From NCBI GenBank assembly GCA_003142355.1, contig PLMF01000334.1, positions 1 to 6,197 of the forward strand: a stretch of 6,197 nt of DNA, written 5' to 3'. This document shows, in pieces, positions 156 to 6,197 of the stretch. The notes below the pieces were generated by a model that worked only from the letters and a program-made list of their open reading frames with translations, searched no databases and was not told the origin of the DNA. This DNA is from Bryobacterales bacterium (GTDB taxonomy: Bacteria > Acidobacteriota > Terriglobia > Bryobacterales > Bryobacteraceae). A program made the position numbers and the translations under genes. Position 1 is the stretch's first letter. Every line of letters begins with the position of its first letter.

Positions 156-2666
156 ATGAAACCCATAGCCCACCAGGCCGAGGCTCCCGAATCGAAGCCT
201 GATGCGAACGAAGATCTGAAATCCCTGCCCTTGCCGGAATTGCAGGCAAAACTGGGGTCGTCGCCGGATGGCCTCAGTCAGGTCGAGGCGCAGAAACGGC
301 TTGCCCAATATGGGCCTAACGAGATCGAAGAAAAGAAGACCAATCCGTTCCTGAAGTTTTTGAGCTATTTTTGGGGTCCGATCCCATGGATGATCGAAGC
401 GGCCGTGATCCTGTCCGCGCTGGTGCGGCACTGGCCGGACTTTTTCATCATCCTTGTTCTGCTATTGGCCAACGCCGCGGTCGGTTTCTGGGAGGAATAC
501 CAGGCCGGTAACGCCATCGCCGCGCTGAAGGCCAAGCTGGCGATTCGGGCTCGCATCCGGCGCGACGGGAAGTGGGGTTCCGTCGCTGCGCGGGAACTGG
601 TGCCGGGAGACGTCATTCGCGTTCGTCTCGGGGACATCGTGCCGGCGGACGCCCGTCTGTTGGAGGGCGACCCCATGGAAGTGGACCAGTCCGCGTTGAC
701 CGGTGAGTCGCTGCCTGTCACGCGCAAGTCCGGCGAAACGATCTACTCGGGCTCGATTGTCCGTCAAGGCGGGACTGATGCACTGGTCTATGGGACGGGC
801 CAGAACACCTACTTCGGGAAGACCGCACAACTGGTGCAGGAAGCGCACACCGTCAGCCATTTCCAACGCGCCGTGTTAAAGATCGGCGACTACCTGATCG
901 TGCTGGCGGTAGTGCTGGTGGCCTTGATTCTGGGCGTGGCCCTTTTCCGGGGCGACCGCATGACCACAACGTTGCAGTTCGCTCTGGTGCTGACTGTTGC
1001 CGCGATCCCCGTGGCGATGCCCACGGTGCTGTCGGTAACGATGGCCGTGGGGGCGCGCGTGCTGGCAGCGAAACAGGCGATTGTTAGCCGACTGGCGGCC
1101 ATCGAGGAACTGGCGGGCATGGACGTGCTGTGTGCGGACAAGACCGGCACTCTGACCCAGAACAAGTTAACGCTGGGCGAGCCGTTCCGCGTGGACGGCA
1201 TCGCACCTGAGCAGGTCATTCTCAGTGCCGCGCTGGCATCGCGCGCGGGAGACCAGGACACCATCGACCTGGCTGTGCTAAGCGGTCTGAAGAACGATCA
1301 AGCTTTGGAGGGCTACCAGGTGGTCCACTACCAGCCCTTTGACCCGGTGCACAAGCGCACCGAGGCCACCGTTAAGACCGCCGACGGGCACACGTTCAAG
1401 GTGACGAAGGGCGCGCCGCAGGTGATCTTGGAACTGGCGGCCAATGCCGCGCAGGTAAACCCCGTGGTCGAGAAAGCCATCGACGAATTCGCTACGCGAG
1501 GCTTCCGTTCATTGGGCGTGGCGCGGTCGGACGCGCAGGGGCAATGGCAGTTTCTGGGCGTCCTCCCGCTCTTCGATCCACCCCGCGAGGATTCCAAAGC
1601 GACCATCGCCACCGCGCGGCAGATGGGCGTGAGCGTGAAGATGGTCACGGGCGATCAGTTGGCCATCGCCCGGGAAACCGCTGGACAACTGGGGTTGGGC
1701 AAGAACATCCTCGATGCCAGCGGCTTCGGCGATACCCGCCACCATGAGAGCGCGCGGTTGGCGGAGTCTATCGAGAACGCGGACGGCTTCGCCCAAGTGT
1801 TTCCCGAACACAAGTTTCACATCGTGGATGTCTTGCAGCGGCGCCATCACATCGTCGGAATGACCGGCGACGGGGTGAACGATGCGCCGGCGTTGAAGAA
1901 GGCGGACGCGGGCATCGCCGTGTCGGGCGCGACGGACGCGGCCCGGGCGGCGGCGGACATCGTTTTGCTGACGCCGGGCCTGTCGGTGATCATCGACGCG
2001 ATCAAGGAGAGCCGCAAGATCTTCCAGCGGATGAACAGCTACGCGACGTACCGGATTGCCGAGACGATTCGCGTACTGCTGTTCATGACGCTGTCGATTC
2101 TGGTTTTCAACTTCTATCCCGTGACGGCCGTCATGATCGTGCTGCTGGCATTGCTCAACGATGGCGCGATTCTGTCGATCGCCTATGACAAGGTGCGCTA
2201 CTCCGACCAGCCGGAGTCTTGGAACATGCGTAATGTGCTCGGCATCGCGACCGCGCTGGGCGTCGCCGGCGTAATCGCTTCTTTCGGACTGTTTTATCTC
2301 GGAGAGCGCGTATTTCACCTGACCCGTGACGTGATTCAATCGCTCATGTACTTGAAGCTCTCGGTTGCGGGACACCTGACGATCTTCGTCACACGAACTC
2401 GCGGGCCCTTTTGGTCCATGCGTCCCGCTCGGGTGCTGCTCCTGGCGGTGGTCGGTACGCAAATTTTGGCGACCCTGATCGCGGTCTACGGACTCTTTAT
2501 GACTCCAATCGGTTGGAGGTGGGCGCTGGTGGTGTGGGGCTACGCATTGGCCTGGCTCTTTGTGAACGATCGCGTGAAACTGGCCGCGTTTCGGATTCTC
2601 GACCCCACACACCCGTGGCTGTCGGCCGACGGCGCACGCCGCTTCGCATCGCGCCCCGTTTGCTAA
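156..2666 (+). CDS. Plasma-membrane-type H+-transporting P-type ATPase (type IIIA)
   Basis: An 836-residue proton-exporting P-type ATPase of the inner membrane, using ATP to build a proton gradient. Order seen: cation-ATPase N-terminal domain (about 20-85), TM1-TM2 (65-90, 94-115), actuator domain with TGES (182-185), TM3-TM4 (243-264, 273-295) with IPVAMP (284-289), phosphorylation motif DKTGTLT with acceptor D328, nucleotide-binding KGAP (418-421), DPPR (474-477), MVTGD (496-500), hinge TGDGVNDAP (570-578), then TM5-TM10. The membrane residues used by plant AHA2 for proton transport have counterparts: N106 in TM2, R639 in TM5 and D669 in TM6 (LLND). This favours H+ over Ca2+, Mg2+ or Na+/K+. 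The protein ends soon after TM10, so the roughly 100-residue autoinhibitory R-domain of plant pumps is absent; archaeal homologues such as MJ1226 are also short. A ClC gene follows after 15-33 bp, suggesting coupled ion handling. The exact substrate is inferred, not shown. Confidence 0.95.
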   Translation: MKPIAHQAEAPESKPDANEDLKSLPLPELQAKLGSSPDGLSQVEAQKRLAQYGPNEIEEKKTNPFLKFLSYFWGPIPWMIEAAVILSALVRHWPDFFIILVLLLANAAVGFWEEYQAGNAIAALKAKLAIRARIRRDGKWGSVAARELVPGDVIRVRLGDIVPADARLLEGDPMEVDQSALTGESLPVTRKSGETIYSGSIVRQGGTDALVYGTGQNTYFGKTAQLVQEAHTVSHFQRAVLKIGDYLIVLAVVLVALILGVALFRGDRMTTTLQFALVLTVAAIPVAMPTVLSVTMAVGARVLAAKQAIVSRLAAIEELAGMDVLCADKTGTLTQNKLTLGEPFRVDGIAPEQVILSAALASRAGDQDTIDLAVLSGLKNDQALEGYQVVHYQPFDPVHKRTEATVKTADGHTFKVTKGAPQVILELAANAAQVNPVVEKAIDEFATRGFRSLGVARSDAQGQWQFLGVLPLFDPPREDSKATIATARQMGVSVKMVTGDQLAIARETAGQLGLGKNILDASGFGDTRHHESARLAESIENADGFAQVFPEHKFHIVDVLQRRHHIVGMTGDGVNDAPALKKADAGIAVSGATDAARAAADIVLLTPGLSVIIDAIKESRKIFQRMNSYATYRIAETIRVLLFMTLSILVFNFYPVTAVMIVLLALLNDGAILSIAYDKVRYSDQPESWNMRNVLGIATALGVAGVIASFGLFYLGERVFHLTRDVIQSLMYLKLSVAGHLTIFVTRTRGPFWSMRPARVLLLAVVGTQILATLIAVYGLFMTPIGWRWALVVWGYALAWLFVNDRVKLAAFRILDPTHPWLSADGARRFASRPVC

Positions 2667-2681
2667 CCTGAACAGTAAGTC

Positions 2682-5585
2682 GTGGGAATCTCTGCGGACA
2701 TGCCCTCGCCCCAGTCACACTCCACCTGGAAACGCCGTCTGAAGAACTGGTCGGACCCTGAATGGCTTCACCACCACGAAGATAAAGTCATCCTCGTCCT
2801 GACTCTGATCATCGGAGCCGTGGTCGGCCTGGTGGTCGCGGCCTTCATCTACGTCACTGAGAATCTCGGTTCCCGGATGTACCCGGCGGGCGGCGCGGCC
2901 TGGCGGCGGCTGGTGATCCCGGTCGCCGGCGCTCTGTTCACCGGGTATCTGCTCTCCCGCTATTTCCCCAACGCGCGTGGCAGCGGCATCCCGCAGACCA
3001 AGGCCGCATTGTTCCTCCGCGACGGCTTCATCGCTTTTCGGACAGTGGTGGGGAAATTCTTCTGCTGTTCGGTCTCGCTGGCATCCGGCATCGCGCTCGG
3101 CCGCGAAGGCCCGTCGGTCCAGGTTGGATCGGGTCTGGCATCGGTCCTCGGCCGGCGGCTGGGACTGGGACCGGAACGGATCCGGGCGCTGGTGCCCATC
3201 GGAGCTGCCGCGGCCCTGGCGGCTGCCTTCAACACGCCCGTCGCGGCAGTCCTCTTCACGCTCGAGGAGGTGATGGGCGATCTCCACGCGCCGGTGCTGG
3301 GTTCCGTCGTGCTGAGCTCGGCCACCTCGTGGATCGTTCTCCACCTGCTCCTCGGCGACGAACCGCTGTTTCACGTCCCCGCCTATCAACTCATCCACCC
3401 CGTCGAGTTCCTCTTCTATGCCGCCTTGGGGGTTGTCGGCGGCATCGTTTCGGTCTGCTTCGTCAAGCTGCTGCTCTTTATCCGGCGGCGCTTTACGCAG
3501 TTGCCCAAGTGGAGCGAGTGGCTGCAGCCGGCGGTGGGCGGCTTGCTGGTGGGCGTGATGGGATGGTTTGTGCCGCAGGTCCTGGGCGTCGGTTATGGCA
3601 ATGTCAGCCTGGCATTAAACGGCCAGATGGCGCTGGGACTCATGGCCCTGCTGGTGCCGCTCAAGCTCATCGCCACCGCATCCTGTTACGGCACGGGCAA
3701 TGCGGGCGGCATCTTCGGCCCCAGCCTTTTCATTGGAGCCATGATGGGCGGTGCGGCGGGCAGCGTAGCTCACCACCTGCTGCCGGATTATACCGGCAGC
3801 GTCGGCGCGTACGCGCTGGTGGGAATGGGCGTCGCATTCGCGGGCATCGTCCGCGTTCCGCTCACTTCCGTAATCATGATCTTCGAGATGACGCGCGATT
3901 ACTCGATCATCGTGCCGCTCATGATTTCCAACCTCATCAGCTTCTATATCTCACAACGTCTGCAGCGGGAGCCGATCTATGAAGCTCTTCAGCACCAGGA
4001 TGGCATTCACCTGCCCGCCGGAGCCCGGGACCGCCAGGGGATGCCGGTCGTCTGGGCCGCCTTGACTCCCGCCGAACACGTTTTTTCCGGCAGCGCCACG
4101 GTGGAGGACGCGGCCAGGTCTCTCGACGAAGAGCGCAATGCCGCCCCGGTCGTGGGCGAACACGGCCTCCTGGGCATGGCGTCCCTGGCTCGATTGCAGA
4201 AGCACGTGTCGGAGGGGCACGGCAACTGGACGCTGGCCGAAATCCTGCCAAGCTACGATTTCAGCGGGCCGCTCACGGCGCAGAATTTTCCTCACTTGCA
4301 CGTGGATCAGCCGCTCGATGCGGCCTTGAGACACATGGCGCAAGCCAAGCTGAACGTGCTGCCGGTGGTGAGCCGGACTAACCTTCGCAACCTGCGGGGC
4401 GTGGTCTCTCTCAATGGCATCCTGCACGCCTATGGTGTGACCGAGGCGGAAGAAGCGGCTCCCGAACCGGCGCATTCAGTGACTCGCCGCTCGGGCGCGT
4501 TCTTACCGGGCCTGATCGCCGCCACGCTCGGAGCGCTGTTGCTGGTGGGTTTCCTGAATTATTACTACCGTTCCGAGCGTGCGGCCAGGGCCGATCGGTA
4601 CTTTAAGGCGGGCAACGACCTGGTCCTGCACGATCGCAATCAGGAAGCCGTGGAGCAGTTTCGAAACGCGCTTTCCGTGTCACCCGTCAACCGCGCCTAC
4701 CGGCTTGCCCTGGGCCTCACCCTGGTGAACACCGGCCGCTTCGAGGAAGCCTCCGTGTACCTGGAGGAGGTGCTGCGGCGGGACCCCACCAACGGCTCCG
4801 CCAATCTCGGGCTGGCCAGGATCGCGGCTCAACAAGGGAGAACAGCGGACGCCGTCACCTGTTACCATCGCGCCATCTACGGCTCCTGGCCGGCCAATCA
4901 GGCCGCCAACCAAGTGCAGGCTCGTTTTGAGCTGGCCGCCTTCCTGACAAAGGCGGCGTTGAGAACCCAGGCAACGGCGGAGTTGCTCGCGATAATCGAT
5001 CGTGTTCCCAACGATACCGCCGCCAGGAAGCGCGCCGGGCGGCTATTGCTCGATTACGGAGCACCGGGACAATCGGCGGACGTATTCCATGGCCTGGCGC
5101 GCGAAAACAATCGCGATGCGGAAGCCTACTCCGGGCTGGGAGCGGCCGAATTCGCCGAAGATCAGTACGTGGCCGCGCGCGATGCCTTTCGCAACGCTTT
5201 GCGGTTGAACCCGTCCGATGAAACAACCAACCAGCAACTGGCGCTCTGCGAGCGGATTCTGGAATTGGATCCGGCCGTTCGCGGGATCGGTCCGGCGGAG
5301 CGATATCGGCGCAGCGCGGCGCTGCTCCAAGCGGCCCTTGCCAGGGCGGAGCAATGCCTTCCGAAGATCGGCCAGCCCGCGGACGCTCAGTCGTTTCGGA
5401 CCTGGGCGGACACAGCACGCCAGTCGCTGGCCCGGCATCCGGCCCGCCGGTCGTATGACAGTGCCGCCGAGTCCGATCTTTCGCTGGCGGAAGAGTTGTG
5501 GGCGGCTAGCCAGAAACTGTGCGGCGCGGCGTCCGGGCTCGATGCGGCCACGGATCGCGTGCTGGCCGGCCTGCCGCGAAAGTGA
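2682..5585 (+). CDS. ClC-type Cl-/H+ exchanger fused to CBS pair, extra TM segment and TPR repeats
   Basis: One uninterrupted 967-codon frame. Residues about 35-440 are a ClC core: GSGIP (100-104, with S101 typical of chloride selectivity), GREGP (140-144, gating glutamate E142), FNTP followed by the glutamate pair E195-E196 (second one matching the proton glutamate E203 of E. coli ClcA), GGIFGP (342-347) and Y433 (matching Y445). Both glutamates predict a 2Cl-/H+ exchanger rather than a channel. Two CBS domains follow (about 456-512 and 536-585, the second with GVVSL). Then comes a hydrophobic segment (607-629), about six TPR-like 34-residue units (638-670, 671-704, 705-734, 745-778, 779-812, 813-846) and an unrecognised helical tail (870-967, cysteines C892 and C947). 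ClC proteins with CBS domains are well known; the TM-TPR extension is unusual. The start is uncertain: GTG at 2682 and ATG at 2700 (961 residues) both lack a clear Shine-Dalgarno site. Numbering here uses the GTG. It lies 15 bp after the H+-ATPase and is probably in the same transcript. Confidence 0.92.
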   Translation: MGISADMPSPQSHSTWKRRLKNWSDPEWLHHHEDKVILVLTLIIGAVVGLVVAAFIYVTENLGSRMYPAGGAAWRRLVIPVAGALFTGYLLSRYFPNARGSGIPQTKAALFLRDGFIAFRTVVGKFFCCSVSLASGIALGREGPSVQVGSGLASVLGRRLGLGPERIRALVPIGAAAALAAAFNTPVAAVLFTLEEVMGDLHAPVLGSVVLSSATSWIVLHLLLGDEPLFHVPAYQLIHPVEFLFYAALGVVGGIVSVCFVKLLLFIRRRFTQLPKWSEWLQPAVGGLLVGVMGWFVPQVLGVGYGNVSLALNGQMALGLMALLVPLKLIATASCYGTGNAGGIFGPSLFIGAMMGGAAGSVAHHLLPDYTGSVGAYALVGMGVAFAGIVRVPLTSVIMIFEMTRDYSIIVPLMISNLISFYISQRLQREPIYEALQHQDGIHLPAGARDRQGMPVVWAALTPAEHVFSGSATVEDAARSLDEERNAAPVVGEHGLLGMASLARLQKHVSEGHGNWTLAEILPSYDFSGPLTAQNFPHLHVDQPLDAALRHMAQAKLNVLPVVSRTNLRNLRGVVSLNGILHAYGVTEAEEAAPEPAHSVTRRSGAFLPGLIAATLGALLLVGFLNYYYRSERAARADRYFKAGNDLVLHDRNQEAVEQFRNALSVSPVNRAYRLALGLTLVNTGRFEEASVYLEEVLRRDPTNGSANLGLARIAAQQGRTADAVTCYHRAIYGSWPANQAANQVQARFELAAFLTKAALRTQATAELLAIIDRVPNDTAARKRAGRLLLDYGAPGQSADVFHGLARENNRDAEAYSGLGAAEFAEDQYVAARDAFRNALRLNPSDETTNQQLALCERILELDPAVRGIGPAERYRRSAALLQAALARAEQCLPKIGQPADAQSFRTWADTARQSLARHPARRSYDSAAESDLSLAEELWAASQKLCGAASGLDAATDRVLAGLPRK

Positions 5586-5760: not shown

Positions 5761-6197
5761 ATGGATCGCGAATTCATCCGCAATTTCTCTATCATTGCGC
5801 ATATCGACCACGGCAAGTCGACGCTGGCCGACCGCCTCCTGGAGGCGACCGGCGCGCTTTCGCAGCGCGAAATGATGGAACAGGTGCTCGATACCATGGA
5901 CCTCGAACGCGAGCGCGGCATCACCATCAAGGCCCATGCGGTGCGCCTGAATTATCGCGCCGACGACGGCAACCTCTATCAACTGAACCTGATCGATACC
6001 CCCGGCCACGTGGACTTTTCCTACGAGGTCTCGCGCAGCCTGCAAGCCTGCGAAGGCGCGCTGCTGGTGGTGGATGCGTCGCAGGGCGTGGAGGCGCAGA
6101 CGCTCGCCAATACCTACCTGGCGCTGCACCACAACCTGGAAATTATTCCGGTGATCAACAAGATCGATCTTCCTTCGGCCGAGCCGGAGCGCATTCG
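5761..6197 (+). CDS. lepA: Elongation factor 4 (LepA), N-terminal GTPase domain, cut by window end
   Basis: The first 145 codons of the ribosome-associated translational GTPase EF4/LepA, which is associated with back-translocation and with ribosome assembly or translation under stress. All the visible G motifs are intact: P-loop AHIDHGKST (residues 13-21), switch I RGITI (52-56), DTPGH (79-83) and NKID (133-136), followed directly by LPSAE, which is typical of LepA. The N-terminus [19 protein letters not shown] fits LepA rather than EF-G, TypA or PrfC, so the ATG at 5761 is secure. No convincing Shine-Dalgarno sequence precedes it; the 20 bases upstream are mostly A and C, and the only purine stretch (AGAG, 5743-5746) is too far away. 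The 175-bp gap from the ClC-TPR gene suggests a separate transcription unit. Usual LepA length is about 600 residues, so roughly three quarters of the gene lies outside the window. Confidence 0.96.

Follow-up and report, generated by a model that had tools for sequence, protein, structure and literature searches.

Why should a chloride transporter carry a long helical-repeat extension, and where in the cell would that extension lie? The question is raised by a single gene at 2682..5585 of a 6,197-nt stretch of Bryobacterales DNA (contig PLMF01000334.1, hereafter the window), in which a ClC exchanger with its CBS domains is joined to a further transmembrane (TM) helix and an array of tetratricopeptide repeats (TPRs), 34-residue helix pairs that in tandem form a superhelix. 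The answer put forward here is that the gene probably encodes a Cl−/H+ exchanger (ClC-CBS) fused to its own dedicated accessory subunit. The parts of the gene are as follows.

2682..5585, + strand: ClC-CBS-TM-TPR fusion gene, a single open reading frame (ORF) of 967 codons (967 aa) with a GTG start
2700, + strand: alternative in-frame ATG start of the fusion gene, giving 961 aa and used by the database copy P0001
2928..3956, + strand: ClC exchanger core, Voltage_CLC at residues 83-425 (Pfam PF00654, expectation value (E) 1.7e-98)
2982-2984, 3105-3107 and 3267-3269, + strand: exchanger residues S101, E142 and E196, from alignment to a solved enterobacterial CLC exchanger
3978-3980, + strand: Y433, just past the Voltage_CLC core, from the same alignment
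4059..4442, + strand: CBS region, residues ~460-587 (Pfam CBS, E 6.4e-10)
4443..4499, + strand: variable linker, residues 588-606, with low predicted local distance difference test scores (pLDDT) and a ratio of nonsynonymous to synonymous substitution rates (dN/dS) of ~1, approximately the split point in relatives
4500..4628, + strand: extra TM helix, core 607-625, running unbroken into the first TPR helix to residue 649 (hydropathy, model)
4572..5231, + strand: TPR superhelix, about six helix pairs, residues ~631-850 (Pfam, model, fold matches in the PDB)
5232..5582, + strand: C-terminal helical cap, residues 851-967 (model), with an LDPxxRG motif near its start
5355-5357 and 5520-5522, + strand: cap Cys pair, C892 and C947 (tail alignment)

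The original prediction, made from the DNA letters, had described a single frame joining a ClC core, CBS domains, a hydrophobic helix, about six TPRs and a further end, and this layout was borne out by the ORF, by Pfam and by a structural model that shows the end to be helical. Many TPR models of Pfam matched the fusion protein, some above cut-off, with the best stretches within residues ~642-846, and the hydrophobic segment at 607-625, beyond the ClC core, has a mean hydropathy of 2.25. A homologue search with the window protein scored at least 7999 matches. All of the 120 homologues listed, which come from many separate contigs, matched the ClC, CBS and tail profiles, the tail being the part from the TM helix to the C-terminus; 116 of the 120 were 911-1000 aa long, and those with a named organism came from Bryobacteraceae or other Acidobacteria. 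Mean majority frequency across these 120 was 0.75 in the TM helix, 0.73 in the first TPRs, 0.69 in the CBS region, 0.58 at the end and 0.41 at the junction. When the fusion gene of the window was compared from residue 243 on with L001, a locus from a Bryobacterales metagenome-assembled genome, dN/dS was 0.04 for ClC, 0.33 for CBS, 0.25 for the TPRs, 0.34 for the end and 0 for the TM helix, where every residue of the 24 codons is identical. The TM helix, TPRs and end are under purifying selection. Since dN/dS at the junction was ~1.1, its 19 codons look like a free linker. The claim of a true fusion thus stands on the shared profiles of all 120 listed homologues and on purifying selection; the same two observations rule out an assembly error or a missed stop, and together with the many separate contigs they reduce the probability of a functionless chance fusion or assembly artefact, in favour of which nothing emerged, to almost nothing.

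A second product from within the gene was also considered. The only in-frame starts near the junction are GTG codons 586 and 600, and no Shine-Dalgarno-like word was found at either, in agreement with the earlier statement that the junction, including the GTG at 4479, holds no start with such a site. Junction starts were not conserved across the 26 fused genes scanned, five of which (L035, L183, L185-L187) do have one with a Shine-Dalgarno-like word. A separate TPR product from an internal start was dropped as a candidate, there being no conserved junction start with a ribosome-binding word and a candidate start in 5/26 genes.

The link between the tail and ClC was evident from searches that started from the tail. 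Genome searches covered Acidobacteriota. A full-length profile, run against 150 genomes from the family to which G001 (source of L001) belongs, returned both fused genes and ClC and tail as adjacent separate matches, and three arrangements were distinguished on reading the loci: fused, ClC followed by TPR, and TPR followed by ClC. In the class of G001 the tail profile matched 180 of 399 genomes at E≤1e-30; loci from 40 of these 180 were read as a sample, in genomes new to the analysis and in addition to those read at family level, and in all 40 the tail either formed one gene with ClC or adjoined a same-strand ClC gene. Linkage, defined as fusion to ClC or location within 300 bases of a same-strand ClC gene, held likewise for 13 of 13 new strong tail loci at phylum level, where 63 of 396 genomes matched at E≤1e-22, and for 20 of 20 in the order of Luteitalea sp. 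TBR-22, where 20 of 120 genomes matched at E≤1e-30. Twelve of these last 20 were new, one of them (L234) showing the tail in part only. In total, 65 of 65 distinct strong tail-first loci (40 + 13 + 12) were linked to ClC. A 66th strong tail match, at 4769-5854 of L211, comes from a partial fused gene that retains the tail and the remains of a CBS region and has no ClC. L211 belongs to genome G021 and lies ~22-24 kb from an intact fused copy on the same contig. Weak phylum-level matches of 82-115 bits (L196-L198, L212-L214) had a ClC match in the examined stretch in none of six cases; these matches, under ~115 bits, are TPR proteins and were excluded from the family counts.

Where the genes are separate, the median gap between ClC and TPR is −3 bases in both orders (longest-ORF starts), as in translationally coupled genes. 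Examples are found in Edaphobacter acidisoli (P0169), Luteitalea sp. TBR-22 (P0143) and plasmid pACIX901 of Granulicella tundricola MP5ACTX9, with a one-base overlap between the annotated pair. In E. acidisoli and G. tundricola the TPR gene precedes the ClC gene. This plasmid accounts for the sole match to the tail alone in 72,556 plasmid records (tblastn, E≤1e-5); the ClC part matches in 576. In protein searches separate subunits came, where an organism was given, only from Acidobacteria, few of the matches listed naming one. Databases, where they name these proteins, use 'hypothetical protein', 'PilF', 'tetratricopeptide repeat protein' and similar. Some of the names ('Tfp pilus assembly protein PilF', 'predicted Zn-dependent protease', 'thioredoxin-like negative regulator of GroEL') are likely transfer errors from general TPR matches. 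Taken together, the TM-TPR part is a family of its own that travels with one ClC clade. The case that had been named as fatal to the fusion, homologues in close relatives always split at about residue 600, was found in part: near relatives among those listed are fused, and more distant ones are split, with the two genes still neighbours in either order.

The same picture was obtained from the ClC side. Among 70 rows of the partnered clade in loci found by way of ClC, 63 have the partner (27 upstream, 19 downstream, 17 fused), and the 19 downstream rows include L088, where a fused gene has been broken. In a quickly built tree of 142 ClC rows (midpoint root, support by the Shimodaira-Hasegawa-like approximate likelihood ratio test (SH-aLRT) only, with a long-branch warning), the 124 ClCs of the partnered clade form one group (SH-aLRT 99) with the other ClC subfamily outside. 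Of the arrangement labels in these 124 rows, TPR-first is the most frequent (72), followed by fused (24) and ClC-first (21). TPR-first rows sit in two places on the tree, ClC-first rows in a group of 22 of which 20 are so labelled, and fused rows in two groups, one of 20 rows with the window (18 fused) and one of 9 (6 fused) with degenerate CBS. Because the 'fused' label requires six changes on the tree, five of them forced by starred branches, the fusion was gained or lost on more than one occasion; contig ends and broken ORFs (L061, L088) account for some of these label changes. Distances in ClC and tail were correlated over 115 pairs (r 0.605, with 0 of 1000 permutations as high, and 0.76-0.89 within each arrangement), as expected if the partners are mostly inherited together. 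The tail is the more variable part, with mean identities within arrangements of 29-37% vs 58-73% for ClC. A second fused lineage (L070-L074, L088, L159), of 865-953 aa where there is one ORF, keeps the TM-TPR tail with a CBS region that is barely or not recognisable, and two partnered ClCs with a TPR gene upstream have no CBS match (459 aa in L192, which is the same place as L229, and 449 aa in L232).

The gating Glu and the internal proton Glu are marks of CLC exchangers as opposed to channels, and the central-site Ser of exchangers coordinates chloride. S101, E142, E196 and Y433, the residues named in the original prediction, do align with the exchange residues of the solved enterobacterial CLC exchanger, namely the Ser of GSGIP, the Glu of GREGP, the second Glu of EE and the helix-R Tyr, which we take to be S107, E148, E203 and Y445. 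Across the 124 partnered-clade rows the gating and proton positions are Glu in 124 and 123, respectively, and the central site is Ser in 118, Thr in 5 and Gly in 1. The window ClC is best read from these residues as exchanger-type (Cl−/H+), with 2:1 Cl−/H+ exchange as the predicted activity. Twelve control ClC paralogues of another subfamily (L199-L210) had no tail match in the examined stretch, with flanks of at least 1.3 kb except for 278 bases on one side of L206; since that subfamily is without the central Ser and the proton Glu, they are not matched exchanger controls. For the same reason no claim about an interface is drawn from the 17 ClC columns that distinguish the exchanger clade from this subfamily.

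The AlphaFold2 model of residues 598-967 has a mean pLDDT of 95.5, so that what had been called an unrecognised tail is folded; it stays unrecognised in that a Pfam search of the full protein gave no model match to residues 851-967. In the model one 43-residue helix (607-649) carries the TM segment directly into the first TPR, followed by about six TPR helix pairs, as counted from the helix list, and the helical end. At E values up to 0.1 the only Pfam models to match the tail are those of TPRs or of other general repeats, the match to TPR_21 being weak (613-729, spanning part of the TM segment; E 0.019, 15.1 bits vs a cut-off of 25.5), and the tail's NCBIfam matches, all sub-cut-off, are general TPR models, several of them for envelope proteins (PilW, LapB, YbgF). 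A fold search of the PDB returned TPR superhelices or TPR-like folds and therefore gives no hint of a partner. Aligned tails share 27-53% identity with that of the window. W736 is kept in 115 of 116 tails and both C892 and C947 are present in 113, with exactly two Cys in 62; L058 (369 aa) is the only tail with neither Cys of the pair and has no Cys anywhere. In the model the two Cys are placed at the tips of two helices, 871-895 and 922-947, or close to them; these helices would be parallel to each other if, as presumed, the packing of the three is up-down-up. A C892-C947 disulfide is probable, as predicted from the conserved pair.

Both the termini of ClC and the CBS domains lie in the cytoplasm, and one more membrane-spanning helix after them would therefore place the TPRs outside. 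Of the 91 split tails, with a median TM-segment hydropathy of 2.4, 89 exceed 1.4, and 25 of 25 fused tails reach at least 1.82. The split forms open with this helix, which follows a short N-terminal stretch (TM start at median residue 27). From the TM helix after CBS and the Cys pair we infer that the TPR superhelix is periplasmic. The likely periplasmic side and the conserved Cys pair had both been overlooked in the original prediction.

The accessory subunit would then be a single-pass membrane protein in which the TM helix is rigidly continuous with a TPR superhelix in the periplasm, and the helical cap, with its probable disulfide, closes that superhelix; many relatives encode it separately, in a gene directly beside the exchanger gene on the same strand. 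Most likely it binds the exchanger in the membrane, covering or touching the periplasmic face, and it would be needed for exchanger stability or for setting activity, while the TPR groove may be offered to another envelope protein. Fusion would fix the ratio at one subunit per ClC protomer and two per ClC dimer, and the continuous helix would leave little slack between membrane and TPR. Both physical binding to the exchanger and an effect on transport are presumed here; the subunit may act as a cap, a gate or a stabiliser, or may hand the exchanger over to another envelope protein.

The original prediction had proposed that the transporter is a scaffold or is gated by a partner, overlooking that the fused piece is itself the partner that travels with the ClC clade. 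A scaffold role is retained as an overlapping alternative, in which the TPR part is a general envelope scaffold that tethers the exchanger to another protein, of the periplasm or the outer membrane, without acting directly on ClC itself. Peptides or proteins are common ligands of TPR superhelices (as PMC9643414 also states), and both the envelope proteins among the sub-cut-off NCBIfam matches and the greater variability of the tail would suit such a role. This alternative is possible but clearly less probable than a dedicated subunit, as no third gene recurs beside the pair (the largest other neighbour cluster touches 10 of 143 loci) and L211, a fragment, is the only strong tail-first locus read that showed no ClC linkage. 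A role confined to membrane insertion of the exchanger, with the TPR part serving as a chaperone or assembly factor rather than a lasting subunit, is unlikely. YfgM, also a TM-TPR protein, acts at the Sec translocon (PMC9643414), and the separate gene often precedes clc (the 72 TPR-first rows), an order suiting a helper made first; covalent fusion (24 rows) and the ClC-first order (21 rows) better fit a lasting 1:1 subunit.

Several observations weigh against a dedicated periplasmic subunit with a disulfide-bonded cap, those on flanking charge and on a short Granulicella form bearing on the side of the membrane. Mean counts of Arg plus Lys flanking the TM segment are 2.36 before and 3.48 after in fused forms, and 2.56 and 2.92 in split forms; with more positive charge after the helix than before, the charges do not favour an outside C-terminus. 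They fit instead an alternative in which the hydrophobic helix fails to cross the membrane, leaving the TPR part in the cytoplasm to read out or modulate the CBS domains, the known cytoplasmic regulatory part of ClC. That alternative is slightly less probable still than the assembly factor, given the hydropathy of the segment in split and fused tails, the position of the helix at the start of split forms, the almost invariant Cys pair, and the TPR genes kept beside the ClCs of L192 and L232 that have no CBS match. The full-length model is weak in the ClC part (mean pLDDT 67.3) and useful for the tail only. The short TPR partner of G. tundricola (L235 3860-4564; 234 aa) has no Cys and is without the Cys-bearing end, and a few other genome matches cover only the first half of the tail profile, so the cap is not always present. 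Seven of the 70 partnered-clade rows found by way of ClC have no tail; L061 stops at a contig end, whereas L046, L047, L059, L066, L069 and L075 do not, the stretches read being short upstream for L046 and L059 and ~2.2 kb on each side for L075. Searches of the genomes of these seven rows with the tail gave weak, partial TPR matches at best, or none, and the subunit can therefore be absent. Finally, in clusters that include a clade ClC (L083, L149 and L166), three divergent ClCs from beyond this clade also adjoin a TPR gene. In these loci two or three ClC genes surround one TPR gene, one ClC being of the partnered kind and the rest divergent; the ClCs there may form mixed dimers or share a subunit.

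Two neighbouring genes flank the fusion in the window.

156..2666, + strand: upstream neighbour, proton-efflux P-type ATPase of the plasma-membrane type (TIGR01647, 1086.8 bits vs a cut-off of 615.5), not counted as part of the system
5761..6195, + strand: downstream neighbour, 5′ part of a putative lepA, not regarded as part of the system

The downstream ORF is presumably lepA (elongation factor 4), as judged from its sequence. The proton ATPase and the Cl−/H+ exchanger stand in tandem on the same strand, 15 bases apart. In neighbour clustering of 143 loci a near match to the ATPase recurs only at L033, the closest relative, and a loose P-type ATPase cluster touches four of the 143; a functional link between exchanger and ATPase was dropped since the near match occurs only in L033.

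Much of CLC biophysics has been built on bacterial CLC exchangers, which, to our knowledge, have been studied without accessory subunits. If the reading of a fused accessory subunit is right, the natural fusion and the separate form would allow the effect of such a subunit on Cl−/H+ exchange to be tested in simple liposomes, the fusion would supply a fixed-ratio complex for structural work, and a role would be assigned to a TPR protein present in 180 of the 399 sampled genomes of one Acidobacteriota class. The broader proposal, moderately probable, is that Acidobacteriota have a dedicated periplasmic, disulfide-bonded TPR β-subunit for one exchanger clade, fused to it in some lineages, which would be the first for bacterial CLCs in the literature searched, of an origin independent of the animal subunits OSTM1 and TMEM9, and a solution to the same problem, control or protection of the outer face of the exchanger. 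No report of a ClC-TPR protein or of a bacterial CLC subunit was found among the titles and abstract openings listed from open-licence PubMed Central literature.

Among known systems, the enterobacterial Cl−/H+ exchanger ClcA shares with the window protein the ClC fold, the Ser, the gating and proton Glu and the Tyr; it is not known to have a CBS, extra TM or TPR part, and solved ClcA chains of 442-489 aa match window residues 36-436 only. ClC proteins on plasmids of other phyla are alike in the ClC part (15 of the 576 records being listed), the tail match being confined to G. tundricola. YfgM is described in PMC9643414 as a single-pass TPR protein with its N-terminus inside and its C-terminus on the periplasmic side. 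It resembles the predicted layout of the tail in placing periplasmic TPRs after an N-terminal TM helix and differs in having PpiD and SecYEG as partners at the Sec translocon and in belonging to TPR_21, whose Pfam cut-off the window tail does not reach. Accessory CLC subunits have so far been described for animal transporters, PMC12403049 listing OSTM1, barttin and glial CAM as β-subunits and adding TMEM9/TMEM9B. OSTM1 and TMEM9 are single-pass proteins with disulfide-stabilised luminal domains and obligatory β-subunits of CLC exchangers (PMC12403049), and OSTM1 covers the luminal face of CLC-7 and has a luminal part made of two three-helix bundles (PMC7440919). No homology to OSTM1 or TMEM9 was detected, the fold lists being filled by one domain so that the absence of an OSTM1-like match says little. 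OSTM1 (partner of CLC-7) and TMEM9/TMEM9B (partners of ClC-3/4/5) are animal proteins, with three-helix bundles in OSTM1 where the window subunit has TPRs, and the latter is fused to its exchanger in some lineages. With a single TM helix, a domain predicted to be extracytoplasmic and to hold a disulfide, and an exchanger-type CLC as its likely partner, the accessory subunit is best read, by analogy, as resembling OSTM1 and TMEM9 in design.

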